A stretch of DNA of 62,100 bases from a virus, in IMG/VR virus record IMGVR_UViG_3300035034_000949, positions 1 through 62,100 of that record; one strand, given 5' to 3'. The translations under genes and the position numbers were made by a program. Each line of letters opens with the position of its first letter. The first letter of the stretch is position 1. A model generated the notes under the pieces. That model saw nothing but the letters and a program-made list of their open reading frames with translations. It was not told where the DNA came from and did no database searches. This document shows, piece by piece, positions 3,301 to 60,492 of the stretch.

Positions 3301-6300
3301 AGCCTGTGCCCCCTGAGGTGCAACATAACCGTCTGGAGCTGGCAATGCCAGGCTTTCGGACGGCGTTTTAGCGGATGGTTTGGGTGATGGTCCCTCGGAT
3401 GGCGGTGTGCCATCCGGACTGTCCTGTTTGCTCGGCCCGTCTGTAAAGCGAAGGTCCAATCGGCGAAGGATCGCCAACTGCTCGTCCCAGTACGACCAGG
3501 TACGCTCAGCTTGTTCTTCACCCAGGCCCCCTAGACGGGTCTTGCCCATGAAGCGGTCTTTGAGGTTTGTGGCCACATCGCCCACAAACTTACCCGCACC
3601 CTTGGTCGCTTTCCACAAGGTTCCATAGTAGGCCTTGACCAAGTCCACCCCTTTTTCGGTCAGGGTGCGGATGGGCTTCCCATCGGCCCCTACGACTTTC
3701 TCCAGTTCCTCCATCGACAGCACCACACGCCCGTCGGGGTCTACGATCGACCCGTCTATGTCAGCGTAGGTGTAAATGGGTTTACCCGTCACCTGTGACC
3801 GGTAGTGGCCTTTCTGTAGAAGATTGGCCAAGATACGAGGCGTACCCTCTCCCCGAACGTAGAGATCCTGTTGGCGAGTGAGTACGCCTTTGGTGAAGCC
3901 GTAAATGGCACGGGCTGTTGGGGGAATAAACCCTAAAAGCTGCTTACCGCCGCCCCACAGTGTTTCGTAGTACGACTTTAAGAACCCTGCGGCTTTGGTG
4001 ATGATGCCTTTTCCGTGTTTGTCATAAAGCCCCTTGGCCAGCTCCTCGGCCGTTAGTACCACCTCACCGGCTTTATTCTGGATCTCACCCTTGGCCGCTT
4101 TCAGGTCCTCCAGTGTCCACAGCGTCTCTCCGGTAAGGCCGTCGATATACTCACCAGCTTTGAGCTTGCTCATGTAAATTGCCGCACCGGCTTTGCCCTC
4201 AACGTACAGCTTCTCGATTTCAGCCTTGCCTTGGGTGAGGCGTTGGCCAATGGATCGAAGTAAACCCCCAGCCCCTTCTGCGACTGGTTTGACGACACCG
4301 CCTGCGGCTTCAACCACGTTGCCCATCAACCCAAACGCACCTTTGTAATAGGTTTGTAACCCGTCACTGGCGCCTTTGGCCACCTTGCCTACCCGACTGA
4401 CGATGCTCTTAAACACCGAACTGTTGGCCTGGTTAGGCCCACCGCCAATCGTGGCGGACTCGGGTATGATGGCCAGGATCTGCTTGAGCAGCTCGATTTG
4501 CTCGGCGGCTTCGGTTTTGATGCAGCAGTCTTCGATGACCTTGCGCACGGCGTCCATGCCGTCGCTGTTGGCCATGGTCGTCTGAGCCTTGGGCGTCGAG
4601 AGCCCTTGGATCAGTTCGTTGAGCTGGTCCGTCTGAGTCACTTGTCCCGATAACAGCAAAGGCAGATGCTGTACCGTGGAGTCGCTCATTGGCGAGACAG
4701 CCTCCGAAATCCACCGAACTGCATCTTCTATTTCTTTGGACGCTTGGGGGGCTTGCTGGAGGGTGTCCGTTTTGAACGGAGTTGTTCGTCGGTCTTCCAT
4801 ATCTGGACGGGTGTTTTGAACACCACGTAAAGCCACGTCAGTATCATCAGCAGCGTTACTATGCCCAGACGCCACACGAGTCTTAAATGTGCCATCTTGT
4901 CCCCTCTTGGCGATGGGTCGGCCGCTGAGATGCTCCGCGACGACGTCATGATCGATCTTACCTTGCGTGTCTATAAGACCCATCTGGATCATGTCGTCGC
5001 GGTACCCTGCTCCGAGCATCTTTTCTATGGTCTCTTGGATGTACGGTATACTTTCCCGCAAATCCCCTATTTTACCGTAAGTCTCACGGGTGGTGTTCTG
5101 CACCGTGGCGCTTTGGTAGTGGTTCCCGCTGCTGTCGTAGACGTTCTTGGTTAAGATGTCTGACAACAGTTTCTTATTGTCCTCCTGCACATAGTCGGAT
5201 CGACCGATCGCGGCTGGCAGCTCCTTGATCTCCGCTGTCTTGCCTTTGGACAGTTGGTCGTATAAGAAGTTCTCCAGCTCTTTTCGTTGATCGTCGGTGA
5301 CGTCCGCGCCCCCAAGCAGGCCGTCAACGGCCTCGGTCATGTTGCGTTGGTACTTATCCGAGGTACCACTGAACAAACGGTCTTGGACGGTTTTGGTTTT
5401 TTCTTCTGCGGCGGTGAACTGACCGGTCTCGGGGTTGTACTCGATCTTATCGACCGGCTGGCCATCCGCGACCAGCAGCCGCAGCTGATGCAGCTGCAGT
5501 GACAAATAGCCTGGAATCACATCGGTGATGGCCCGGGCTACGCGATTGGTGAAGGTGGCAGCTTCATCGGCGTCAGCAATTTGTTCGATGCTGACCTTAT
5601 CGATGCGGCCAAACGACGGCATCTGATCCTTGATGAAGCGTTCAAAGAACCCAGATGGGCCGGTGAGTCCGGATTCTGACTGCGACCAAGCCAGCAGTTT
5701 CTCCGGCGCTTCTTGGAGCATCAGTGCCAGACGTGAACCTAATCGTTTGACATTCGATTCATCAGCATCCTGGCCCATCTTTTTCAGAGCCGCTGAGATG
5801 CCTTTCTCCATCATCGCCTGCCCGCCGCTTGACCCGAGCATGTTAGCGACCATGGACAACGGTGACTGATCCATGCCTTCCGACATGCCCATGGTGTCCT
5901 GGAGACCGGACATGGTGTTGGTCAGACGATCTTTAACGGTGTTGATGGTGTTCCCCACCATCTTACCGCCCAGACTTTTGACATAACCCCCCACACCCTG
6001 TACAGCTTCGCGACGCAGATCCGCTTGTATTTCTCGCTTGGCTTCTTCAAAGGCCCGGATCTTTTGCGTCTCCGGCAGACCCGTGTTCTTGACGATCTCC
6101 GCCAGCGACTTATTCTCGGACTCCGCCTGACGTTTACCCAGCTCCAGGATATCCTGGAAGGTATAAAGTTGTCTATAGGTGAGCTCCAGGTGCTTTTGCT
6201 GGTACTTGGTCAGTACCTGATCCTGGTAGTCAGTTTGACGAGTGATGCCTGATCGTATAGCCTCAAGGACTTCCACTTGAGACATGTGGCGCTTTGTTTC

Positions 6301-6966: not shown

Positions 6967-8949
6967 ATGGCTAAGAAGCCGCCGTTTAACTTGGAAATAC
7001 TTTTGGTTGATAAACGCAACCTGCAAGGCATCCCTCAGATAACAGTACTGGATATAACGGACGGGGCTACGGATAACCTTCATCCTGAAGGCTTATTCTC
7101 CACCGAGTTCTTTGGGCGTAAAGGTGAAGATAGGCGGGTTGAGCAGTTTGCGTACATCGACATGAACACCCGGATCCTGCACCCGATCCTGTACGATGCG
7201 TACAGTAAGTTGAAGGGTTTGTACAAGGGTATACTGGAGGGCACCGAATACGCGGTCTGGGACAATAAGGAAAAAGATTTTGTCCGAGATAACGAGTTGG
7301 ACGGGCAAACCGGGTACGCGTTCTTCATGAAACACATGGCGGACATCAAGTTTAAGCGGACGGGGTCGGCGGAGCGGGATGATCGCATCCAGTTGATTCA
7401 AAAGAACATGGACCGCGCTTTGACGAGGTACCTTCTGGTTCTGCCCGCAGGTCTAAGGGACATCGAAGAAGACGCGTCAGGTCGGGTAAAGAAAGACGAG
7501 ATCAATAAGAAGTACGCTCGGGTGTTGGGGGTGGCCAACCTCATCGGAAAGGACGGCGAAAGTCCTGCACAAGATGCCACCCGAAAGACCCTGCAAAACA
7601 CCTTAAACGACATCTACGCCTACATCAAAAACCTGCTGGATGGAAAGAGTGGGTTCATGTTATCCAAGTGGGCCAGTCGAAGCATTTTCAACGGCACTCG
7701 AAACGTCATCGCCTCTAAGAATGCGGTGCGCGAGTCATTAGACGCCGACAACCTGGCCTCGGTGACGGACACCGGCATTGGTCTGTTCCAGATCATGAAA
7801 GGTACCCTGCCCATCACCAAGTACGCCCTGCGTACGTTCATGGCTTCCCGATTCAGTACCCAAGAGGGTAACGTGGTCGTGGTAAATCGAAACACCTGGA
7901 AACCAGAGTCGGTCACACTCGATACGTCCGAAATCGACAGCTGGACGACTGGCGAAGGGCTTGAGAAAATCATCAATCGGTTTAAAGACGCCGCGGTGCG
8001 GCATCGGCCGGTGATGTTAGGGGATCACTATGCGTTCTTGGTGTATCAGGACGACCAAGGCTTCCGGGTGTTCGATAACATCGACGACCTCCCTGAGGGG
8101 TTCTCTTCGGACAACGTGCGACCTATGTCGTTGGTTGAAGTGTGTTACCTGTGTCAGTATCAAAAATGGTACACCTTTGGCGGGTACGTCACACGGTTCC
8201 CTGTGACGGGTACTGAGTCCACCTACCCCACCCGATTTTACACCCACACCACAACCAAAGCAAAACGGTTGTTGGAGTACGATGACCAATGGCAGCTTCA
8301 GACGGATAAAGTTGCTCGGGAATACCCGATATCCGACATGTCCTTTATGGACGCTTTGATACCCGATACGACTCGCTTAGCGGGTCTCGGCGCTGATTAA
8401 CGTGAGTACCTGTACTCGCATAGTCCATCCCTTTGGTAACGAAGGTGATGTTACTCTTTGAATTGCTGGAAGACCTCGTTAGATTCTTGCACCACAGTAC
8501 GGCGCGAAAGCAGCTCACTTAACGGTACTACGGTTTGACAAGCAAGAAGTAGAGAAAATCAGCAGCCAAGATCCTACGTACTGTCGTGAGGCAGGATATG
8601 GATAAGGTTCAACGGCCATCCCGTAGCTGGGAGTAGGACACGCAAGCTTAGGCGGTCCGAAGTGGAGAGCCCCTACTGAGGTAGGGTGAAGATATGGTCT
8701 CGTTCCCCGGTGAGAACCGGGGCAGCCTCCTAGAGAGGCGGTCTAGGGTTTGCGTCCTAGGCGAAGGCAACGTTCGACGGTGATACGTGCAGTGCGGATA
8801 TCGTGTACACCAACAACGGTTTAAAGGAGATTGACGATCTCCTCGATAACATCAACACCTTTGTGGATCCCCGAGGCGGGTTCCGCGCAAGCACCTCTAC
8901 CGACACGATAGAGTTGGTGCTCAACAACCTCACAGGCGACCCATTATGA
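6967..8949 (+). CDS. Virion RNA polymerase beta' N-terminal subunit, intron-split
   Basis: This CDS is two exons, 6967-8397 and 8773-8949, giving 535 aa. Exon 1 has the expected N-terminal beta' landmarks in weak form: a VLPAGLRDI segment like the LPVLPP loop, a SKWASRSIFNGTRNV segment where bacteria have the GKRVDYSGRSV region, and a VMLGDHYAF stretch matching VLLNRAPTLH. It ends GLGAD and then stops. Joining to TTC GAC GGT GAT at 8773 restores ADFDGD, the Mg-binding loop (F478-D481), followed by a 55-residue tail. I chose ATG 6967 because AATGGAGAA lies 8 bases upstream; an ATG at 6934 lacks this. The stop overlaps the beta start as ATGA. Position beside the gp181-like and protease genes points to the virion enzyme (phiKZ gp180 type). 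The beta' C-terminal part is not in the window. Confidence 0.82.
8398..8772 (+). ncRNA. Group I intron 1, in the beta' catalytic motif
   Basis: This 375-nt intervening sequence has stop codons in the exon frame, so it is not an intein. It carries group I core elements: AATCAGCAGCCAAG (Q-like), GTTCAACGGCCAT (R-like) and GAAGATATGGTCT (S-like). GGCCAT and ATGGTC can form P7. The boundaries satisfy the group I rule: the exon ends in T (8397) and the intron ends in G (8772). The splice rebuilds ADFDGD exactly. A stem GTGAGTAC/GTACTCGC lies near the 5' end. There is no endonuclease ORF inside. Confidence 0.87.
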
Positions 8950-11900
8950 TTCGTATGGACTTGTACCACCGCCAGTTCCAGGTAAGACGCTTCACTGAGA
9001 TGACCACGGATAAACACTTCGATCTGATGGCCATGCAGTTGCCGCGCTCTACTACCTTTCACTACTTGCCCGAGACGGAAACCGTGACTGGGCCGGATGC
9101 GGCTGATCCCATTTTGTCGGAGGTCGAACGGAACATCTACGTCGAACACATACACAAGTACCGTGGGCCGGTTGAGGGGCGTATGCGCGACTTGCCTCAC
9201 AATGAAGATCGCGAGGTAAAGGCGTTTCACCGCAGACACCGCCTGCTCAGACGGTCTAAAAAACGTGAGACCTCGGTGCGGGATGACAAATCGTTGTTGG
9301 TGGTAAACTACGCCCCGATACAGCACCATTACCTGTACACCCGTACGTACCGTACGGTGCATCAGAAGTGGATGAACCTGCACAACACGTTAATACTGGA
9401 AATGCTGGATCACCTAAAAACCACGGATCGGCTGCAGTTCGTGCGCATTGACGTGCCGGACGTACTGCCGACGCTGACCGCCATGCGCAAGGTGGCCAAA
9501 GAAGGCTGGTCGACGGAGACCATTAAGGCGTTTGATACCCCCGAAGCCATCAGTGTGATGGATGCGTATCTGATGCTGGATCCGGAATCCACCGGTTCCG
9601 TGTACGACCGGATCCCAAAAGAACACTGGCCCAGGATCCACATGATCTGGCGGTACCAGGAGCGGTGGTTCTCCATCAGCCTCGACACCCTCAAAGGGTT
9701 TACGTACGAAGTGGAGGGGGACGAAAAAGAACGCGACGTGGACGGAGTACGCAAGCGGTTCTTATCCTTGTTAATGACCCTGCAGGAAGCCGGGCGTGGG
9801 GGTGTATCGTCAACGGATACCGCCACGTACCTTACCAAGAAAGACAACGACGATAATGTCGATGACGAAGACGACGACGTCCTTGTAAAGGAAAAGGGAG
9901 ACGCTGTCCTGGAAAAGGATGCGGACGACCTGAATGGATTGGAGGAAGTGCCTGACGTCACCCCGGTGACAGAAACCCCCACAGCTAAGAGTATCCGAAA
10001 AACGGTGGATCAAGACCCTGAGCACTCGTTGATGGCGGTGGCTGACACCCTGGTCGAAGAGGGGCGCATGTCAGGTGCCGAATACCGTCGGGCCAAGAAA
10101 TTGTCCACGGCGTACAAGTCGGTCAAGCACCCGTTGACGAACGAATCGTTGGATAAGTTTGCCGTCATCACGTCAGACGATCTGGCGATCGAACCCGAGG
10201 TGTTAATGGGTCCGTCGACCGGGGTGCCGGACGACTCCATGCGCACGTCTTCCATCAACACGGTACGCGACCAGTACGTGGAAAAGGTCATGCAAAAGGA
10301 CATCACCAGTCACGTGTTGTCCATGCAACGCATGGGGGCGTCGGTCACCGACTACGACATAGAACGGCACGAAGATGCCGGCGGGGCGTACGAGGCGCAC
10401 ACGGTTCGGCTTCAGCCGTTGACCGGGTCACCGTCCACGTTGCGCTTCAAGTTACCGGTGGTCAATAAGGATGGGACGTTCACAGTCAACGGCATCACGC
10501 AGTACATGCGGTGGCAGCGAGGTGATCTCCCGATTCGCAAGACCGCGCCTGATAAGGTTGCGTTAACGTCGTACTACGGCAAGTGTTTCGTGGAGCGGTC
10601 ATCCAAGATCGCTTACGACTACGGGGCATGGTTGATCAAGTCCTTGATCGGGGCTGGATTAGATGATGATGATAAACGGGTGAGGGATCTTCGTTTAGGC
10701 AATGTCTTTTACCCCGATGTAAAAGTGCCCCGTGTGTACAGTACGTTGGCAAAGAAAGTGTCCAAGGTGACAGTCGGAGGAGTGGTATTGCAGTTAGACC
10801 GACACGAAGTCGAGAAGCTGTACGTCGACGACCTGCCTAAGCTTGAAACCTCAGGCTGGGTAGTGGTCGGTAAGAAGGCGGGTGAGTATGTCCTTATGCA
10901 AACCGATGACGCCGTAGGTACGTTGTACCTGAAAGGCGACAAAGGCCCTGTGGAATTAGGGACGATCGAGGAACTGGCCAATCTGGATGTAAGTGCCGCT
11001 CCGCTGGATGTGGCTGAGATTCGTCTGTTCAGTAAAAGCATTGCTTTGGGCATTGCTTTGGGGTATCTGTTGGGCTTCCGTGGTCTGTACCGGTCTCTGG
11101 GCGTGGTGCCCAGGATTGTGGCCTCCGGTGAGCAGATGCAGTTGCAGGACCACGAATACGCCATCCGGTTTTCAAACGAGTCGTACATCTTTTCGAGGGA
11201 CGATACCGAGGCGGCTCTGTTGCTCAACGGCTTTAACCAACACAAGCGGTTGGTGCAGCGATACTCCTCCCGGGAGTTTGAGAAACAGGACGTCTACAAA
11301 AACCTGCTGGAAGAAGTCGGTCTGGGCGTGAGGTACGCCCGCGAGCTGGATCTGATGGATAAGATGTTCGTGGACCCCATCACGTTAGGGATTCTTCAGG
11401 AGCGCAACGAGCCCGAGACATTTCAGGGGCTGTTGTACATGGCGAATGAACTGCTTTTAACCGACGACCACCCCCATGAGAACGATCTCAGTCAGCAACG
11501 CATTCGAGGGTATGAACGAATGACAGGGGCGGTGTATCAGGAGTTGGTGCGCGCAGCACGCGGCTATGCCATGAACCCCAACGCCAAAAAAGCAAAGTTC
11601 GAAATGAACCCTGAGGCGGTGTGGTATAATGTGCTGGGTGACCCGTCGGTCAACCTTAGCAAAGGCAATAACCCCATCTCCCAACTGCGTGAGAACGAGG
11701 ACGTGACGTTTAGTGGGGTAGGGGGGCGCAGCACCCGATCCATGGTGGAGCGGACGCGGCATTACCACCACAGCGATCTGGGGGTCATCTCCGAGGCGAC
11801 CGTGGATTCCGGTAAAGTCGGGTCAACGATCTACTTGTCTGCAGATCCTAACTTTACCTCGGTACGCGGCACCACCCGCCCTCGCACCGATGCAGATGGA

Positions 11901-13530
11901 CCAACGAAACATTTCAGCACGTCCATGTTGTTATCGCCATCGTCTGATAGAGACGATCCAAAAAGGATCAACACCGGTCCCTTTGACAGTAACGTGTCAA
12001 TCGCATAACTTCCCTAAAACGGGGACTCCTTCTTTTGAATAGCCTGGTGGCTATCATTGCTGCCATTGTTGTGACTTCACTGGTATTCAGAAGAAGACAA
12101 TCCGTTACGAAGTACCTCATCCTGAGGTATGTGTTCAACGGCCATCGAAAGCTGCGGCCCGTAAGAGGGCTTAGTGACATCCGTATAAAACCGGATGGTC
12201 TCGCACACGAGATTAAAGCAAGTAGAGTACAGCCCAAGCGCTATGGGGTTCCAGTATGGGGTAATCACCCAGTCATTCTGGATTAAATGGAAACGGGAAG
12301 CTCCCCACCTGCGGTATAGCAGAGGGAGATGAGATGGTCTGTTCCTACAGGTGACTGTAGGCGGGTGCCAGGTATCGCACCGGCTTTGATGCGCGATCAA
12401 AGTGGACAATAAGCAACTTCATCAGTATTCAGTACGGTTCCAGCATAGCCTCTAAGGGGTATGTGCCTGCACCGGTGCGCACCGGTATGGAGCGCGTTGT
12501 TGCACACCGCACCAGCGACCTGTTTGCTCAAACGGCTAAACAGTCGGGCAAGGTGGTCTCCCTAACGGACGATATACTGGAGGTGCAGTATAAGGACGGC
12601 ACCACCCAGGCGATTGAGATTGGTCGCCGTTACGGCACAGGGCCTTCCTCAGAGCAGATGTTCCCACACGAACTGGTCACCTCTTTGAAGGCGGGTCAGA
12701 CGTTGCGTGAGGGGGATGTGTTGGCCTACAACACGGGGTACTTTGATCCGGATCCATTGGATCCTAACCAGGTACTATTGAAGACCACCGCGCAAGCAAA
12801 AACGGTTCTGTGGGAGTCGCCGGATACGTTGGAGGATAGCTCGGCTATCTCAAAGTCGATGGCGGCAAGCATGGAATCCACCACCACCAAACTGAGGCAA
12901 ATTGTGGTGGACTTTGAGACCGTTGTCCGTAACCCTCTGAAAGTTGGGGCTGCCGTAGACTACGATGACGTCCTGTGTCTTCTGGAGGAACCTACAGCGG
13001 CTGCTGGCGGAAATCTATCAGAAGCAGCGTTAGACACCCTCAAGAAGATCGCGTCGAAAGCCCCTAAGGTGAAAGGTGCCGGGGTGCTGGAGCGCATTGA
13101 GGTCCTGTATAACGGGGAGTTAGAAGACATGTCTGAGTCCCTTCGGGCCTTGGCAAAATCCTCGGACAAACGCATTCGTGCTTTATCCAAAGCAAAGAAG
13201 CAGAAAGTCCAGTCGGGAAGTGTCGATAACTCTATGAGGGTCGCAGGTAACGAGCTGTCCCACAACACCGCTGTTTTGAAGTTTTACGTCACCGGGCCTG
13301 AGCCTGCTGGCGTGGGTGATAAGGTCGTGTTCATGGGGCAACTTAAGTCAGTCATACGGGACGTCGTTGATGAGCCTATTCTGACAGAGGACGGGGATAA
13401 AATCGATGCAATCTTTGGGTACAAGTCCATCGACGACCGCATTGTAAATTCTCCTGCTTTGGTGGGAACCGCGGCGTTGTTGATGGATGAAATCACCCAA
13501 CGCGCCGTCGCGATGTATTTCGGCGATTAA
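8946..13530 (+). CDS. Virion RNA polymerase beta subunit, intron-split
   Basis: Best model: exons 8946-11990 and 12433-13530, 1380 aa. Beta landmarks appear in order: an Asp-rich linker near residues 295-350; VNGITQYMRWQRGDLPIRK near 514, matching the bacterial 'ING-ERV' strand and fork; DRDDPKR near 1006, matching the E. coli 'DDANRA' loop; RTGMERVVAH just after the splice, matching 'GTGMERAVA'; and LKFYV...GVGDKVVFMGQLKSVI near 1296-1318, matching the catalytic lysine region 'VKVY...GDKMAGRHGNKG'. It ends soon after, without the bacterial C-terminal clamp. In phiKZ the virion beta is divided between gp178 and gp149; here both halves form one spliced gene. The start codon overlaps the beta' stop (ATGA), so translation is probably coupled. 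Confidence 0.83.
11991..12432 (+). ncRNA. Group I intron 2, in the beta gene
   Basis: This intervening sequence of about 442 nt separates the DDPKR and RTGMER parts of beta. It shares with intron 1 the R-like GTTCAACGGCCAT and an ATGGTCTGTTCC S-like segment that can pair as P7; TACCTCA/TGAGGTA forms a perfect hairpin just before R. With exon 1 ending at T11990 and the intron ending at G12432, the intron starts AACGTG, as intron 1 does after its first T. An alternative set of boundaries 11 bases downstream (12001/12444) keeps the same frame and length. No convincing ORF lies inside. Confidence 0.8.
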
Positions 13531-19117: not shown

Positions 19118-19157
19118 GGCATAGCAGGAGGGCACCACGCCCTCCTGCTACTATGCC
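19118..19157. terminator. Bidirectional hairpin terminator, repeated element
   Basis: GGCATAGCAGGAGGGC pairs with GCCCTCCTGC...TATGCC across a CACCA-type loop. It sits between convergent genes and gives hairpin plus TATGCC on both strands. The stretch from GCATAG to TATGCC recurs apparently identically at 38193-38231, with a variant at 56535. Confidence 0.85.
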
Positions 19158-34948: not shown

Positions 34949-35000
34949 GAGATACACACCTGTCCTACGTCTAGGACGCTAACGATAAAAGGAAAAGACC

Positions 35001-35354
35001 ATGAAAGTTTCTTACGTAGTAACCCTGAACGCCCAAGAACTGAAGTCGGTAGCGCGCATCATGGAGGAAATAGCGCCCACCGAAGCCTTGAAACAGGGCA
35101 CGTTGAAAATAACGCAGAAGTCTAAGTTGACTTCTACTTTGGTAAAGTTCAAGTTAAAACGAACGGCCAAACTGGAGATGGAGATGGAGGTCTCCGAAGA
35201 TTACCTGGCGTGGTACGCCGACTCGGTGGAGCGCCTAGCCCCACTCGTTCGGGGATTAATCCCCCAGATGGTAAACTTGGGTGAGGAAGCGAAAAAGTGC
35301 GCCACCCGTGCACCCCAAGACACCGCCCCGATCACAGTGACGGACGACGAGTGA
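35001..35354 (+). CDS. Hypothetical protein (117 aa)
   Basis: A 117-aa Lys/Glu-rich protein with AAAGGAAAAGACC before the ATG. The N-terminal part alternates strands (KVSYVVTLNAQELKSVARIM, TLKITQKSKLTSTLVKFKLKRTAKLEMEMEV) and the end is acidic. No family recognised. Its stop overlaps the next gene's start (TGATG), indicating coupled expression. Confidence 0.68.
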   Translation: MKVSYVVTLNAQELKSVARIMEEIAPTEALKQGTLKITQKSKLTSTLVKFKLKRTAKLEMEMEVSEDYLAWYADSVERLAPLVRGLIPQMVNLGEEAKKCATRAPQDTAPITVTDDE

Positions 35355-35962
35355 TGATGACATGGGGGCAGCTAGCTGCCCCCACACAGTCTTTCTTTTT
35401 GGCAACGAGCGCGACCGCCATGACGCATAAAGAACTTTGCTTTACGTACAAGCTGCCACACAAGTGGGTACGCAGTCACGTAAAGCGTTACGAATCCACC
35501 GAGGCCGCCTTAGCGGCCTTTGAACACCCAGACCTCTCCGACTGTGTCAGCAAACACATTTCACGTCGGAGGTCGCAAGGTGAGGTGACTGACCACATCC
35601 ATACCACGTACAACGTGGGTCTGATTGACCTGATTCAGCGTTGGGCCGATCTGGGCTACCGGTTGACTCGCATTGCTTTTTGGTTAGACATTCACCCCGC
35701 CAACCTCAGAGATATGGTGTTTAAAACCGGGCACAAGATCCACTGGCTGGACAACCCGGCGTTGGATAACCGTGGTCAGTTGATGCGGTACCGCGTGAAC
35801 GACACCCCCACCACACTGACCGCCTTTGCAACACGGTACAATTATCAGGTGGGCGCTTTGTCGGACAAATGGCGCGACTTAACGGACGAACAGATGTCTA
35901 ATGAAATGACACGGATCGCAAAGGCTGCCGATCTGGTACAGGGTTTCCTGCGCGGACAGTAA
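35354..35962 (+). CDS. Hypothetical protein (202 aa), possible helix-turn-helix
   Basis: The frame is open from 35297; ATG 35354 overlaps the previous stop and a second ATG follows at once, so coupling decides the start. The protein is basic at the N-terminus (LPHKWVRSHVKRYES) and contains IQRWADLGYRLTRIAFWLDIHPANLRDMVFKTG near residues 95-127, which reads like a helix-turn-helix, and a second possible one near 160 (LTAFATRYNYQVGALSDKW). A DNA-binding regulator is a reasonable guess, not shown. Confidence 0.66.
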   Translation: MMTWGQLAAPTQSFFLATSATAMTHKELCFTYKLPHKWVRSHVKRYESTEAALAAFEHPDLSDCVSKHISRRRSQGEVTDHIHTTYNVGLIDLIQRWADLGYRLTRIAFWLDIHPANLRDMVFKTGHKIHWLDNPALDNRGQLMRYRVNDTPTTLTAFATRYNYQVGALSDKWRDLTDEQMSNEMTRIAKAADLVQGFLRGQ

Positions 35963-35977
35963 AAAAGAGAAGGATCA

Positions 35978-36093
35978 ATGCTTATCTTATGTATTGTTCG
36001 CAAGACAATACAACCGACGGATAACTCCACACTCCGTCGTGTTGTTTTCAGGATAGGGCGGTGCGCACATTTTTAGCACCGCCCTTTTTTTTT
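35978..36093 (+). ncRNA. Candidate structured RNA with three stem-loops (or 32-aa ORF)
   Basis: Three hairpins follow one another: GTATTGT/ACAATAC (35991-36011), CAAC-CGACGG/CCGTCG-T-GTTG (36011-36044), and AGGGCGGTGC/GCACCGCCCT (36055-36085) with nine Ts. This architecture is typical of a small RNA ended by an intrinsic terminator. It could also be the 3' leader of the previous mRNA. An alternative is a 32-aa ORF at 35978-36076 with AAGGA three bases before the ATG, which ends inside the terminator. Confidence 0.45.
36055..36093 (+). terminator. Strong intrinsic terminator
   Basis: AGGGCGGTGC (36055-36064) pairs with GCACCGCCCT (36076-36085); Ts run from 36085 to 36093. Confidence 0.92.
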
Positions 36094-36120
36094 ACCTACC
36101 TAGTGACATGGGAGAGTGGC

Positions 36121-36576
36121 GTGGGCGTTACCTTACCTTGGCGCTTATTCTGGACGACTAGCACGCTGACCGGTGCCCACCCGACTTTACCGGGGTGGAC
36201 AATACACCAATGGAGTGGGGATCTTGACGAAGTCAAAAGCGCCGTATTAGGCACGTTTTTAACCCAAATGATGAGCAACAAACCCATCTTATTGGATCAA
36301 GCTGCCAGCCATCGTCTGGACGGCTGGTCGATCTACGTCCCCATTACTCGAAAATACTACAATCGGTGCGTTCTTTGGGATGAAATCTGGCACACAGTGA
36401 CGGTTGACCAGGTGCCTGAAGACATACTGTCACACGCCATCGGTGTGCATGATATGCACGACGTAGTCGCTAGACTATCGCCTATCCGTGGCCATGAGTT
36501 TTGGAAAGACTGGCATCAGGAGGTTTACCGTGTGTTAGAAAACCCCCCTTGGACGACCATGATCCCCAAAGGGTGA
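36121..36576 (+). CDS. Hypothetical protein (151 aa)
   Basis: The frame is open from 36061, which lies inside the terminator, so I choose GTG 36121, preceded by GGGAGAGTGGC. The protein is Trp-rich (PWRLFWTTSTLTGAHPTLPGWTIHQWSGDLDEV) and alpha/beta. No family recognised. It follows the strong terminator immediately, so its promoter must lie in or just after the terminator. Confidence 0.58.
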   Translation: MGVTLPWRLFWTTSTLTGAHPTLPGWTIHQWSGDLDEVKSAVLGTFLTQMMSNKPILLDQAASHRLDGWSIYVPITRKYYNRCVLWDEIWHTVTVDQVPEDILSHAIGVHDMHDVVARLSPIRGHEFWKDWHQEVYRVLENPPWTTMIPKG

Positions 36577-36733
36577 CAGCTTTACCAGTTACGGTGCCGT
36601 CGTGTGACTTGTCTGCGGACAAGTTCTCTTACGTCGAGGTTTTTGTTACAACGGTGCGCTTTCTCATAGCGCGACACGTAAGGCCGTTAATGACAAGCCG
36701 ACCTTTTCAAGGGGTAACGACGGCACCCCCTTT

Positions 36734-36823
36734 ATGGCGACCCAGGATAGGTTGGGGTGTCCAAGCCCGGTTTGACACGGTCATCGATGTCATGTAGCAC
36801 TTGGATGTTACCTGGGTCGCCAT
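36734..36823 (+). ncRNA. Long nested stem-loop, candidate structured RNA
   Basis: ATGGCGACCCAGG (36734-36746) is a perfect 13-bp inverted repeat of CCTGGGTCGCCAT (36811-36823). Inside it TCCAAG (36760-36765) pairs with CTTGGA (36800-36805), extended by G.T pairs, and TGACA (36773-36777) pairs with TGTCA (36788-36792). The 368-bp gap 36577-36944 has no convincing gene. A terminator-type hairpin follows 21 bases later, consistent with a discrete transcript. Confidence 0.5.
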
Positions 36824-36843
36824 TCTATTGTGTGAAGTAGCCG

Positions 36844-36874
36844 ACACCCTGGGCATCAGCCCAGGGTGTTATGC
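36844..36874 (+). terminator. Hairpin terminator with TTATGC tail
   Basis: ACACCCTGGGC-ATCA-GCCCAGGGTGT (36844-36869), then TATGC. Confidence 0.78.
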
Positions 36875-36944
36875 TGTCGCTGTGTTGAAAAATACACAAG
36901 AAAACTATCGTAATAGTAACACTAACACCATTAAGGAGTCCGTA

Positions 36945-37370
36945 GTGACCACGAAGACCACCAAGCCTCTGATAAATTTAATGCCCGTAACGAACTTATC
37001 GGAACTACCGATCCGCCAGATCGTTGTGGATGAAGTCAGAAAAACCTTGCGGGTAGACGGAACACTCACGCAGTGCGTTTATATCAAATCCCAGGGAGCT
37101 CGATGGGGAGTCTGTTTATCTACCTGCGGCCCCCCGGTGGTCTTTGTAGCTAATAATGTCGACAAAGTAACCGTGTTGGGGTTTACGGCCCACCTTTGCG
37201 GACCGGTGGTTCGCATGGGTGTTGACTCGGACTCTATCCATCTGGTGGTTTCAGCCCCCGAAGGGGATGAGTTGTTCTACAGTATCTCACGCCGTAATTT
37301 GTCGTTTAATAACCCCCATGGGGAAATCGTCACCCCCGCCCACAAGGAGCTTTTGTATGCCGCAAACTGA
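36945..37370 (+). CDS. Hypothetical protein (141 aa)
   Basis: The frame is open from 36801, but GTG 36945 has TTAAGGAGTCC seven or so bases upstream and is the probable start. The protein is strand-rich (LRVDGTLTQCVYIKSQGARWGVCLS, VTVLGFTAHLCGPVVRMGV) and small. No family recognised. It overlaps the next gene by 14 bases. Confidence 0.63.
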   Translation: MTTKTTKPLINLMPVTNLSELPIRQIVVDEVRKTLRVDGTLTQCVYIKSQGARWGVCLSTCGPPVVFVANNVDKVTVLGFTAHLCGPVVRMGVDSDSIHLVVSAPEGDELFYSISRRNLSFNNPHGEIVTPAHKELLYAAN

Positions 37371-37728
37371 TGCGTTTATTGAGCGTCGCACGGAGGCGCT
37401 GGCGATGCAACACGCCGACGTGCTGACCGAGGTGCAGTCGGTGTGGCCGCAGGGTACGGTGGTGTTTGCTGACCCCAACCATCTGGTGCTGTGGGTTCTT
37501 CCATCGGTTCCGATGGATGAGTCCGATGAGTCCTACGACACCCTCCTGGAAAAAGCATCCACCGCCTTACGGTGGGCCTGCATTGCCCCTGATAATCGGA
37601 CATTAGAATCAGCATTGAACGGCAAGCTTTTACCAAATGCCACCTTGCACACCAACGAACACAACGTAGCGTGGCTTATACAAGACACTCCGTACTTTCG
37701 TGCGGGGAGTTTCAAACAAGACACCTAA
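37357..37728 (+). CDS. Hypothetical protein (123 aa)
   Basis: ATG 37357 has AAGGAGCTTTTGT directly upstream, inside the end of the previous gene. The product is acidic with a helical start (ERRTEALAMQHADVLTEVQSVWPQG) and an alpha/beta remainder. No family recognised. It lies in a three-gene run with 36945 and 37752 that ends at the bidirectional hairpin 38193. Confidence 0.66.
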   Translation: MPQTDAFIERRTEALAMQHADVLTEVQSVWPQGTVVFADPNHLVLWVLPSVPMDESDESYDTLLEKASTALRWACIAPDNRTLESALNGKLLPNATLHTNEHNVAWLIQDTPYFRAGSFKQDT

Positions 37729-37751
37729 ACCTTTAAAAAGAGAGTAAACCC

Positions 37752-38186
37752 ATGACCAATCTATTAGAATGGATAAAGAAGCCTGAAACGCGACTCAAAC
37801 CCACCGACTTAGCCTTCTTAGATAAACAGATGGTGGGTTTGATGGAAGCCAGCACGTACATCGAATCGATGGTGTTCAATAACCCACTGTCTGTGATCCT
37901 GGTGAAGTTCTCGGATTATCAGATCCAGTGCGCCATGATTAACACCGAGGAGGCTGATACACTAACCGCCCTAGCCAGTCGCCTCGAAGACTGGTATGAC
38001 GACTATGGCATCCGGGCGTATAGCATCAAACAGGCCTACGACAAGCAGGGCTTTTTGGTATCCGCCATCGACGGCAGCACCTACGCCCCGACCACACTGC
38101 CTGTCCCTGAGTATTCGGAAATCTGGCAGTGGGATGTGCCTTTGTCTATGAACCAACTCCCCATCGAAATCTTCGAGGTGATGTAG
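37752..38186 (+). CDS. Hypothetical protein (144 aa)
   Basis: A 144-aa alpha/beta protein with AAAGAGAG before its ATG. The central segment (LSVILVKFSDYQIQCAMINTEEADTLTALASRLEDWYDDYGI) looks like a strand-strand-helix unit. No family recognised. It ends the run of small plus-strand genes facing the convergent gene at 38247. Confidence 0.66.
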   Translation: MTNLLEWIKKPETRLKPTDLAFLDKQMVGLMEASTYIESMVFNNPLSVILVKFSDYQIQCAMINTEEADTLTALASRLEDWYDDYGIRAYSIKQAYDKQGFLVSAIDGSTYAPTTLPVPEYSEIWQWDVPLSMNQLPIEIFEVM

Positions 38187-38192
38187 TCGACA

Positions 38193-38243
38193 GCATAGCA
38201 GGAGGGCACCACGCCCTCCTGCTACTATGCCCCTTATTTTTTT
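38193..38243. terminator. Bidirectional hairpin terminator, second copy
   Basis: GCATAGCAGGAGGGC and its complement form the same hairpin as at 19118, apparently identical from GCATAG to TATGCC. It is followed on the plus strand by CCTTATTTTTTTG. It lies between convergent genes. Confidence 0.88.
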
Positions 38244-39227: not shown

Positions 39228-40220
39228 ATGGCAAAAGACCACAAACCCAAATCCCGACTCACCCTATACTCGTGCGGCGGCGGTGGCATCAAACTGGGCC
39301 CTTATTTTGAAAACGCCGAAGTAAGAGACGGTCAAGCCGCCATTGACGTGACGTACGTGGATACGTCACTCTCCAACTTGCACAATGGCTTAGACCGCAA
39401 ACGCGCAGCCATCATCGAAGGCGTTGATGGTTCTGGTAAAGTACGTAAAGAGAATGCGTCCGCGATCTCAGAGTCCATCAAGAAACTCCTACTGGATCAC
39501 CCACCAGGTGATTTGTCAGTAGTGGTATATACAGGTATTGGTGGCACAGGATCTGTGGCTGGAATTTTGATCCACTCTGAACTGTTGGCCCGTGGCGAGC
39601 AGGTGATCTCAGTGATCATCGGCGGTGAAGAGTCCGCCATGGCGACCGATAACACTGTCGATACACTAAAGTCTCTGGATGCCATCTCACAAAAGCGAGG
39701 AAAGAACGTCGTCTTTGCGTATCAGCATAATGATCCCGATACGACGCGCGCTGAAGTGGACGCACACGTCCACACCACTATCGCCGCCCTGGCAGTTCTG
39801 GCTTCTCGTCAGAACGACGAGCTAGACACTCGCGACATTCACAACTGGATCAACTTCTCGGAAATTGACCGTTTGGATTTTGAGCCGGCACTGGTGCGGC
39901 TGCGTGTGTTCGACCACGAATCGGCAGTAGAAGGCGCGAATGACTACGACGTCATTTCCGTCGCCAGCCTGATGTCCAGTCCGTCGGTATCGCCCCCCGG
40001 GTGGCATCCGGACTACAGTGCCACTGGCTACTGTGATCTCAAAGCCATCACCGGCGAAGAGCAAGAAGGCCTACATTACCTCCTGACCCACGATGTGGAT
40101 AAGATCTACAACTACATCGCTCAGGTGCAGGCGAAGATCCAGGAGCGAAAGTCGGCGAGAAAGGTCGTCCAACGCTACGCGGAAAAAGGCGAAGCGGATG
40201 ATAACGGGTTAGTGCTGTAA
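39228..40220 (+). CDS. phuZ: Tubulin/FtsZ-like GTPase, probable PhuZ
   Basis: At 330 aa this fits phage tubulins (about 315-330 aa). The N-terminus has a strand and glycine loop YSCGGGGIKLG (residues 14-24), then a VDTSLSNLH strand-turn, and at about 101-111 TGIGGTGSVAG, which matches the tubulin/FtsZ signature GGGTGTG closely. Known: PhuZ builds a spindle that centres the phage nucleus in phiKZ-like phages. The polar C-terminal tail (IQERKSARKVVQRYAEKGEADDN) is consistent with a filament-forming tail. A chimallin-like gene elsewhere in the window supports the role. The protein is divergent, so the tubulin family is more certain than the precise PhuZ function. Confidence 0.68.
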   Translation: MAKDHKPKSRLTLYSCGGGGIKLGPYFENAEVRDGQAAIDVTYVDTSLSNLHNGLDRKRAAIIEGVDGSGKVRKENASAISESIKKLLLDHPPGDLSVVVYTGIGGTGSVAGILIHSELLARGEQVISVIIGGEESAMATDNTVDTLKSLDAISQKRGKNVVFAYQHNDPDTTRAEVDAHVHTTIAALAVLASRQNDELDTRDIHNWINFSEIDRLDFEPALVRLRVFDHESAVEGANDYDVISVASLMSSPSVSPPGWHPDYSATGYCDLKAITGEEQEGLHYLLTHDVDKIYNYIAQVQAKIQERKSARKVVQRYAEKGEADDNGLVL

Positions 40221-43856: not shown

Positions 43857-44333
43857 ATGGAGGCCCTTGTGGGATACCATCGATACCTAATCCTCCCCAC
43901 CGCCCGCATCCTCAAGACGTTTCACGAAGAAACGTTCGTGCTGACCGACGTGGGGTTTGAGCTGGAGTACATCCTCGCAAAGCTCATCGAGCTGGTCGAT
44001 GAGGCACAGACTTTACGTGGGGAGTCTCCGGCGAACCACCATTGGCAAGAAGCGTTTGTCACGTCTGTCCACTACGAAGGTATGGCAGACTACTATGACG
44101 CTTACCAGGACTCTGTGCTTTCAAGCGCTTTGCGCAAACTGTATCGGAACATCTTGGCGGTATTCATTCACACCACCCCCGAGATTCACCCCGATGAAAA
44201 CATGGCGTACGCGCGTTTAGTGGCTGGGGACATCATCATGGGGATATACCGAATAAAAAGAATCACCCGATACGATGTTGAAAAACAGCGTCAACCACCT
44301 ATCTTATCAGGACCTATCCCGTGGCGACACTGA
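43857..44333 (+). CDS. Hypothetical protein (158 aa)
   Basis: I start at ATG 43857; the frame is open from 43785 but overlaps the previous gene there. No strong ribosome site is seen. The 158-aa product is helical and acidic (FELEYILAKLIELVDEAQTLRGESPANHHW...), ending basic. No family recognised. It overlaps the next gene by 13 bases. Confidence 0.6.
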   Translation: MEALVGYHRYLILPTARILKTFHEETFVLTDVGFELEYILAKLIELVDEAQTLRGESPANHHWQEAFVTSVHYEGMADYYDAYQDSVLSSALRKLYRNILAVFIHTTPEIHPDENMAYARLVAGDIIMGIYRIKRITRYDVEKQRQPPILSGPIPWRH

Positions 44334-56534: not shown

Positions 56535-56573
56535 GCATAGCAGGAGGGCGTAATGCCCTCCTGCCTTTATGCC
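56535..56573. terminator. Bidirectional hairpin terminator, third variant
   Basis: GCAGGAGGGC (56540-56549) pairs with GCCCTCCTGC (56555-56564), flanked by GCATA and TTTATGCC. It is a variant of the hairpins at 19118 and 38193, between convergent genes. It overlaps the last codons of the minus-strand gene. Confidence 0.85.
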
Positions 56574-58608: not shown

Positions 58609-60492
58609 ATGGCTATTAACAAAGGTTCTAACGATCAAAACCCCACGCCAGATGCAAACGCATCGGTGGACGAAAACAAATCCCAGCAACAGCCTGAATT
58701 CCGCCGCCGGTCGATCTTTGAGATCAACCGCACACACCGTCGGAACATCAGTCGCTCACAGATGGGTGAAGTTGTATCCAAGTGGCGCGATGTGATTGAA
58801 AGCGTCATAAAGAACCCGACCATGAATGAGGCGCCGGATGCGCATCAAATCTTGGTCTTCAACGGCGAAACCAACAACACGCCGTTCTCGGCGTTGATCC
58901 ACGTGACCAAGTCTGTGGACGGCAACAAGGTAGCCGTGTACCATACGCTGATGCTGGAGGGGTCAGCTGAGCCGCTGCAGCCTGAACTGAAGCGCATGAG
59001 TCAGATGGAAATCGAGGTGAAGCGCACCGCAGGCGACGCCTACGATGAAACCATGGCGGAGAAGATCCGTGCGTTGGTGGCAGATGCTCTGCCGACATAC
59101 ACCCTGGCATCTTCAGACTACACCGTTATATCGTCCGAGAACAAGCCGGAAGACGAGTCCGCCAAAGCGGTACTGTTTTTCAGCAACGCGGCCAACGAAG
59201 CGATCCTGGATCGCATCGAAGGCGTAGCGCCGTTCTCTATTCAGGCGTGCTTTGATCCTCAGCAAGATAGCCTTCGCGGTCGCCTGGAGTACGACCCTGA
59301 GCCCATGGATAACGTGAACGGTCTGCCTGTACGTTCTGACATCCACGTCGCTGTAACAGCACACAGCCGTGACAACCACGGTCAGTCCATGCGTATCACT
59401 GAAGTCGATGCGTACGTGGATCTGGTGTTGGATCAAGACTCTATGATGAGCGCGTCCAACGCGTACACCAGCGGACTGCCAAACCAGTTTGGTCCACAAC
59501 AACCCGTGGATCTTCAGCGCTACTACCCACGTGCCGTATTGACACGTGCGGATAACCACTTCAACATGATTTCGTTGGAGACCGAGCTTCTGGCTCTGGT
59601 GACTGTGGCACAACTGTCGAAAGACAGTGGTTACTCCGGTGTCTGGCGTCCACGTAAGGGCATCAAGCAAAAGGACGATCTGCGTGACATCGGCGCGGTG
59701 AATCTCGAACTGGGTCTGGTCAAGGATCCTAAAGATCCTAACAAGCGTGTGCGCATAAACACCAAATCCGACGACTTCCGTGATAACGATGCGTATCAGT
59801 TGATCCGCACGGTGATCAAGGATCAGTTGATTTACTCACTGGACATCGAGCAAGGTGGCGAGCACAGTTGGGTACAGAAGTTCTTCCTGATGGCAACGGC
59901 TGATGATGCACAAGGCCAAAAGGCGCACCAGGCACTGATTGACGCAGCCGACAACCTGACCAGCGGCTTCTTCCGCCAGTACTTTGATCCGAAAGACCGG
60001 ATCGCCGTACACGATGGGAACCGCATTCAGTCGGGTTACTACGTAGACGCGAAGGGCAACCGCCGCGACCTGCGTGAGGTGGATCACCTGGCCATGTTGA
60101 ACATGTTCGGTGAAACCAACATGGAAATCGTGGATCGCTTCGCAGATACGTTTGACCGTACCAACGAAGACATGGATGTGCGGTTGCACTTCCGCAGCCA
60201 GATCCTGCGTGAGGCCGTAGGTGAGATTCACGTGAAAGGCTACGCCGATCGTGTGAACCTGACGCCTGCGTTCATGAACGCACTGGTCACCGCGTCAGCG
60301 AAAGCTGAACTGTCCATCGATCCTGCTGCTATGCATCAGCAGTTCAACTCCGCCCCCCGTGGCAACGCGCACATCGCACGTTTCGCAAACCAAGGCTTCA
60401 CAGGCGACATTTACGCCTCACGCGGCCCCACTTCTGCGTTTCAGCGTGGCGGTTTCATGGGCAGCAGCTTTAACGGTAACAACAACTGGTAA
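58609..60492 (+). CDS. chmA: Chimallin-like phage nucleus shell protein
   Basis: A 627-aa protein, the size of known chimallins (about 600-630 aa; phiKZ gp54, 201phi2-1 gp105). It has a polar, disordered N-terminus (residues 1-30) followed by RRRSIFEINRTHRRN, a long alpha/beta body, and a flexible Gly/Phe/Asn C-terminal tail (about 590-627), as in chimallin, whose tails link subunits of the sheet. The next gene is a beta' N-terminal subunit, the same pair as gp54-gp55 in phiKZ; this order is the strongest support. ACGGAGAATAC precedes the ATG. The protein forms the shell that encloses replicating phage DNA. A strong terminator follows. Confidence 0.8.
   Translation: MAINKGSNDQNPTPDANASVDENKSQQQPEFRRRSIFEINRTHRRNISRSQMGEVVSKWRDVIESVIKNPTMNEAPDAHQILVFNGETNNTPFSALIHVTKSVDGNKVAVYHTLMLEGSAEPLQPELKRMSQMEIEVKRTAGDAYDETMAEKIRALVADALPTYTLASSDYTVISSENKPEDESAKAVLFFSNAANEAILDRIEGVAPFSIQACFDPQQDSLRGRLEYDPEPMDNVNGLPVRSDIHVAVTAHSRDNHGQSMRITEVDAYVDLVLDQDSMMSASNAYTSGLPNQFGPQQPVDLQRYYPRAVLTRADNHFNMISLETELLALVTVAQLSKDSGYSGVWRPRKGIKQKDDLRDIGAVNLELGLVKDPKDPNKRVRINTKSDDFRDNDAYQLIRTVIKDQLIYSLDIEQGGEHSWVQKFFLMATADDAQGQKAHQALIDAADNLTSGFFRQYFDPKDRIAVHDGNRIQSGYYVDAKGNRRDLREVDHLAMLNMFGETNMEIVDRFADTFDRTNEDMDVRLHFRSQILREAVGEIHVKGYADRVNLTPAFMNALVTASAKAELSIDPAAMHQQFNSAPRGNAHIARFANQGFTGDIYASRGPTSAFQRGGFMGSSFNGNNNW

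Follow-up and report, generated by a model that had tools for sequence, protein, structure and literature searches.

The gene-free 368-nt gap at positions 36577–36944 of the 62.1-kb IMG/VR virus record studied here (the window) holds, with a probability that we put at about 0.93, a conserved structured RNA. In the most likely arrangement the + strand would encode two adjacent small structured noncoding RNAs, units 1 and 2, and a hairpin of a type used by this phage (36844–36869) would end the region. The gap folds strongly, its helices are conserved through paired changes, the same plan (TAT, G ... C, NCC) recurs in other phages, and in two relatives a copy lies in a tRNA cluster. Each unit has a closing helix of about 11 bp with a G directly after TAT (or TAC), a C at its end and usually N-C-C behind it, which would amount to tRNA acceptor-end geometry. 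Given this likeness to a tRNA end, the units may be excised by the enzyme that trims tRNAs. Most likely they would be made within a longer transcript, host RNase P would cut before the first G of each (between C36592 and G36593 and between T36735 and G36736) and the released units would then persist as stable RNAs that act in trans; a target RNA or protein would perhaps be contacted through the inner bases of unit 2, which are invariant. We rate the mechanism as a whole, two small noncoding RNAs released by RNase P, at slightly under an even chance. The features are listed in the table.

Features of the gap and its downstream border
Feature	Positions	Strand	Basis
Unit 1, a structured domain of 135 nt; closed by helix GGTGCCGTCGT/ACGACGGCACC; lead TAC, tail CCC	36593–36727	+	Repeat, fold, pair changes in L002
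Unit 2, a structured domain of 86 nt; closed by helix GGCGACCCAGG/CCTGGGTCGCC; lead TAT, tail ATT	36736–36821	+	Repeat, fold, pair changes in L002
Invariant core, left part GGTTGGGGTGTCCAAGCCCGGT	36750–36771	+	Identical in L002 (alignment)
Invariant core, right part GTAGCACTTGGATGTTACC	36794–36812	+	Identical in L002 (alignment); last two bases in closing helix
TATG, possible late-promoter motif	36733–36736	+	G is the would-be +1 and first base of unit 2; motif from the accessible part of PMC4666361
Hairpin ACACCCTGGGC/GCCCAGGGTGT (36844–36869), then TATGC; putative transcript end or punctuation element	36844–36874	+	Repeat, pair changes in L002
AAGGAG and GTG start of next ORF (36945–37370)	36933–36947	+	Sequence; ORF product without counterpart in L002

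Its genes mark the window as part of the genome of a phiKZ-like jumbo phage of the nucleus-forming type: among their products are a PhuZ-type tubulin (39228–40220), chimallin (58609–60492), a divergent DNA polymerase of family B, an NAD-dependent ligase, subunits of a multisubunit RNA polymerase and proteins like phiKZ gp28 and gp29. The best matches of the window among named phages are to Xanthomonas phage LucasX (PhuZ 44.4%, DNA polymerase 37.6%). The gap is flanked by two + strand ORFs, one of 171 aa that ends at 36576 and one with a GTG start at 36945, and unit 1 begins 16 nt past the upstream stop codon. Pfam and PHROGs searches with the two flanking ORFs gave no match, and neither has a relative in IMG/VR. 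Two further ORFs overlap the gap, one of 98 aa (36501–36797) and one of 189 aa started by TTG (36801–37370). The region has no close DNA relative among the named phages; a single 22-nt match to unit 2 was taken as chance.

The 13-bp arms to which the earlier note had drawn attention (36734–36746 and 36811–36823) are perfectly complementary and 64 nt apart; the stem that they form consists of the closing helix of unit 2 and two A-T pairs. A second repeat of equal rank, overlooked in that note, has 11-bp arms at 36593–36603 and 36717–36727, 113 nt apart. The 90-nt element that the 13-bp arms delimit folds at -41.5 kcal/mol (z = -3.73), a value that none of 200 shuffles equalled, and the whole gap reaches a z of -5.30 (0 of 100 shuffles as good). 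The minus strand of the gap folds equally well (z = -6.30), so folding does not give the strand; we infer the + strand from the TAT and NCC features and from the neighbouring genes. A perfect 13-bp repeat with a spacer of 40–130 nt is not rare in a sequence of this size, appearing somewhere in the 62-kb window in 11 of 100 dinucleotide shuffles; inside the 368-nt gap such a repeat is rare (3 of 5000 shuffles, spacer 3–130 nt). The window holds three perfect repeats of at least 11 bp (spacer 40–130 nt), two of which adjoin in this gap. As to the two stems that had been described as nested within the 13-bp arms, the apical one (TGACA/TGTCA) is supported by base changes and the middle one is ambiguous, because the inner bases of unit 2 do not vary: GGGGUG may pair with CACUUG, or GUCCAAG with CUUGGAU.

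One close relative was found, contig IMGVR_UViG_3300031223_000034 (L002), whose ligase and DUF7484 protein match those of the window at 59% and 86%. Unit 2 aligns with it in blastn at 81.7% over 93 nt, and the two flanking ORFs give no alignment. All three helices are present in L002. The closing helices of units 1 and 2 each have seven pairs the same, four of 11 changed on both sides and none broken, while the third hairpin has seven of 11 pairs the same, three changed on both sides, one changed on one side and again none broken. RNAalifold, given the window and L002, shows a further pair change, located in unit 2's apical hairpin. The unit 2 stretches GGTTGGGGTGTCCAAGCCCGGTT and GTAGCACTTGGATGTTACC are identical in the two phages, with a 1-nt indel just before GGTTGGGGTGTCCAAGCCCGGTT; no reading frame can be shared across an indel at this place, next to the invariant core, which argues against a conserved protein. 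An invariant core within a covarying stem is the pattern that functional RNAs display. The comparison is the check for compensatory changes that the earlier note had proposed, and it supports the noncoding RNA suggested there. We found no relative that keeps an ORF through the region and has lost the pairing: L002 retains the pairing and its indel breaks the frame. Within IMG/VR, searches with core patterns found the element in the L002 contig only, other matches being unrelated sequence. Among 84,980 bacterial and archaeal species, each represented by one genome, a long gapped pattern of the core had no match and an 18-mer had three scattered ones, so that no host origin or target was seen.

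Units of the same plan (TAT, a helix that begins with G and ends with C, then N-C-C) are also present in LucasX and in three further relatives, L051, L030 and L033. Both L002 units read TTTAT, a stem that opens with GG and closes with CC, then ACC and TTTT. A strict scan of 109 records (3.38 Mb, both strands, the L002 contig being included several times) for stems of at least 10 bp with a GG start after A or T and NCC behind returned only the L002 units, one in LucasX (44045 onward in MW825358; locus L007) and one in L051. In LucasX and L051 the unit is found on the side of the DUF7484 gene that it occupies in the window, at a distance of about 3.0 kb in LucasX and about 1.8 kb in L051, compared with 1.4 kb in the window. 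When the rule was relaxed to TATG with no more than one non-pair in 11, L030 and L033 also gave units. These two records are near-identical, rank among the next closest relatives as judged by the DUF7484 protein, and have their units on the side of the DUF7484 gene that faces PhuZ. Each has two units, of which one starts 4 nt (L030) or 7 nt (L033) past a tRNA-Leu gene, with tRNA-Met next, and between L033 and L030 four of the 13 pairs of its helix are changed on both sides and one is broken, while the helix of the other unit is unchanged. A weaker candidate with a TAC lead and an ACC tail occurs in L061 and L062, in a gap downstream of PhuZ. LucasX gave ten matches under the loosest rule; a TAT lead combined with full pairing (12 of 12) occurs only at 44045. 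Among the phages in which a unit was found, LucasX is the sole isolate. A looser-scan match in the window at 59096 (10 of 11 pairs) is inside the chimallin gene and was taken as chance. Most scanned relatives have no unit under these rules; the whole-genome scan of phiKZ yielded one match, in a structural gene, and no unit, and none was seen by eye in the 720-nt gap of FLC9. MAFFT found no alignment of the unit interiors.

The association between lead and tail was counted over 88 loci (the window, L002, L007, L020–L025 and 79 of the 80 relatives' loci, the eightieth being L002's own contig). These contain 157 stems of 11 bp with a G start, a C end and a span of about 60–160 nt. An NCC tail follows six of the eight stems after TAT, compared with seven of the 149 after other triplets. 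Unit 1 of the window is one of those seven, and the two TAT stems without NCC are window unit 2 (ATT) and the L030 unit beside tRNA-Leu (TCA). Fisher's test gives 2.3e-6, or 5.7e-4 once the five units that gave rise to the rule are left out, and 0.0055 if near-identical loci are in addition counted once.

Because the helix ends resemble RNase P substrates, the RNA-processing site proposed in the earlier note is plausible as a predicted point of cleavage. Like tRNAs and tRNA-like substrates, the units start their helix with G and have N-C-C after the last pair, and one of them lies in a phage tRNA cluster; unlike tRNAs they have no cloverleaf or T-loop and escape ARAGORN, and the CCA is incomplete in the window. 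ARAGORN found no tRNA gene in the window, nor in the L002, L007 and L051 loci. RNase P makes use of an unpaired RCC, according to the accessible part of PMC12710915. The position in the tRNA cluster of L030 and L033, where RNase P acts anyway, favours release by this enzyme; against it stand window unit 2, which lacks the CC tail (ATT), and window unit 1, which lacks the TAT lead.

A phage RNA of comparable build is the C4 antisense RNA of P1 and P7 (RF01695), for which the original work is reportedly that of Hartmann in 1995. According to the accessible part of PMC5320573, RNase P cuts C4 RNA out of a larger transcript at a GGW motif where the P1 stem begins on its 5' side, and loops a' and b' of the RNA pair with the targets. 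We located and scanned the P1 C4 RNA, which starts with UUAUGGUGGGG (UUAUGG) and ends with CCUGCCACC; these ends match those of the units. Shared features are a long closing stem, a phage origin and, in L002 and LucasX as in P1, a UAU-GG start behind a U-rich lead and a CC-A-CC end followed by U-rich sequence; inner hairpins may be shared as well. In contrast, only the closing stem and flanks match, the interior sequence of the units differing from that of C4; the units here form a tandem pair in a phiKZ-like phage, and window unit 2 has no CC tail. The UAU-GG start and the C-A-CC end occur together in both L002 units and in LucasX, whereas in the window unit 2 has the start with an ATT tail and unit 1 has TAC-GG and CCC. 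Inner hairpins P2 and P3 are predicted for the L033 and L030 units beside tRNA-Leu; the other folds differ. Among the Rfam families scored against the single regions, C4 ranks first for L002 (24.1 bits) and second for LucasX (21.8 bits), in both through the closing stem and flanks alone and far under the gathering score of 45. The window and L051 have no C4 match at an E value of 10, and none of the 50 relatives' records scanned (of 80 relatives' loci) passes the cut-off. With the Rfam cut-off not reached, we regard the units as C4-like and not as C4; by analogy they look, and may work, like C4 RNAs. The c4-a1b1 target (RF03163) has no match at its gathering score within the 62.1-kb window. 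When the interior of unit 2 was compared with the 62-kb window and with 17 kb of L002, its longest pairings lay at sites with no correspondence between the two, a weak negative for an antisense target because only these 62 kb and 17 kb were searched. Of all the families in Rfam 15, one alone reaches its gathering score in the window, the group I intron, at a site outside the gap, and the gap region gives nothing credible at E 10, riboswitches included; low-scoring matches to microRNAs and other families in the window, L002, LucasX and L051 regions were taken as chance.

More tentatively, the units may belong to a new class of structured small RNA in nucleus-forming jumbo phages, with a tRNA-acceptor-like end, release by host tRNA processing and action in trans, either as antisense RNA or as bait for host defences that target tRNA. 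Such RNAs would sometimes form tandem pairs and sometimes lie inside phage tRNA clusters. These phages have been studied mainly through their proteins. Rfam has no family for such a jumbo-phage element, and the literature that we covered on phiKZ and jumbo phages, which took in few subscription papers and some articles in part, describes no small, noncoding, structured or tRNA-like RNA of this kind. If the proposal is true, it raises the question of how an RNA with a tRNA-like end is processed and exported, given transcription inside the phage nucleus, and giant phiKZ-type phages would join the temperate ones in producing a small RNA by the C4 route.

The main alternative, rather unlikely if still worth serious consideration, is that the units are primary transcripts of the phage non-virion RNA polymerase, with TATG as a late promoter, the first G of the helix as +1 and no part for RNase P. 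The accessible parts of PMC4666361 and PMC12809450 describe the late promoters of the phiKZ non-virion polymerase as TATG with the G as start point. The window encodes parts of a multisubunit RNA polymerase, and all units start at the G of a TATG except window unit 1 and the weaker L061/L062 candidate. A promoter nevertheless leaves unexplained both window unit 1, which begins TTACG, and the NCC tail that accompanies the TAT lead; to our knowledge no promoter is tied to a helix with such a tail. Furthermore, the P1 C4 RNA has the same UUAUGG start, and TATG is common, with 285 occurrences on the two strands of the window. A TATG promoter and RNase P could both be true.

We consider it improbable that the region is a cis-acting mRNA element, such as a 3'-end stabiliser, a block to readthrough or the leader or attenuator of the downstream gene. 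The location just past a stop codon, between two + strand ORFs and with a hairpin at its end, would suit such an element, but it is conserved in L002 where neither flanking ORF is, units occur in other gene contexts including a tRNA cluster, and no riboswitch in Rfam matches. Very unlikely is an origin in tRNA genes whose middle degenerated while the ends needed for processing survived: the acceptor-like ends, the tRNA-cluster position and the broken tRNA halves in L030 and L033 would agree with this, yet unit 2 shows its strongest conservation with L002 in its interior and paired changes preserve the helices, neither of which decay would give, and ARAGORN detects no tRNA in the window. Little more than a slight chance attaches to a cruciform-extruding DNA element serving as origin, terminus or packaging site. 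The replication or packaging role raised in the earlier note has as its sole hint the change in sign of the GC skew near 36 kb, where the cumulative skew peaks, and it is not supported: the core sequence is strand-asymmetric, TAT and NCC mark one strand, and the skew maximum of LucasX is at about 139 kb, away from its unit, with only a local change near 40–45 kb, the matching place. Chance or protein-coding sequence, for which the overlapping 98-aa and 189-aa ORFs and the frequency of a lone 13-bp repeat in 62 kb might speak, has a negligible probability and is refuted, as far as one close relative allows, by the compensatory changes and the indel beside the core in L002, with the rarity of the repeat in shuffled gaps also against it.

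The third hairpin, which had been called terminator-type, is real as a hairpin, but it has no U-run (its tail is TTATGCTGTC) and is absent from an intrinsic-terminator scan. It shares with intrinsic terminators a short, G+C-rich stem and a location downstream of the units, and differs from them in having TATGC in place of the U-run, as at other gene ends of this phage. TATGC directly follows a perfect hairpin of at least 8 bp at 12 of its 64 sites in the window, compared with 1 of 221 for TATGA, TATGG and TATGT together, so the third hairpin appears to be one of a set of punctuation elements of the phage. The sites in the window (16821, 17983, 18640, 19119–19157, 33815, 36870, 38193–38231, 40387, 56535–56573 and 60513) lie where genes end and, if the genes converge, on both strands; the copies at 19119 and 38193 are identical over 39 nt. 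In the LucasX locus (L007) 6 of 20 TATGC sites follow a hairpin, and in the PhiPA3 locus (L023) 6 of 44 TATGC and 5 of 37 TATGT sites do so. The element may be a phage-specific terminator, a promoter or both.

Several minor observations were made in these records. The GC skew of the window changes sign at about 35000–38000 although the genes on both sides are mostly on the + strand. In L051 a protein with RRXRR and HNH domains, which we take to be of the IscB kind, is encoded at 9600–10853 on the minus strand and ends about 60 nt upstream of the unit. On the minus strand of L030 (about 3660–3935) and L033 (about 4060–4100) there is a 5' tRNA half (GGGCCTATAGCTCAGTTGGTC...), and the L030 stretch also includes the matching 3' half (...GGTTCAAGTCCTGTTGGGCCCACCA), the halves lying on either side of tRNA-Met; they may represent a split or interrupted tRNA gene. 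The group I intron of the window (8398–8720; RF00028, 58.8 bits) separates two ORFs with matches to families of the RNA polymerase beta subunit. The RNA polymerase family phrog_3148 extends across ORFs 8946–12008 and 12463–13530 with a minus-strand ORF between them, which would be either a split subunit gene or a second interruption.
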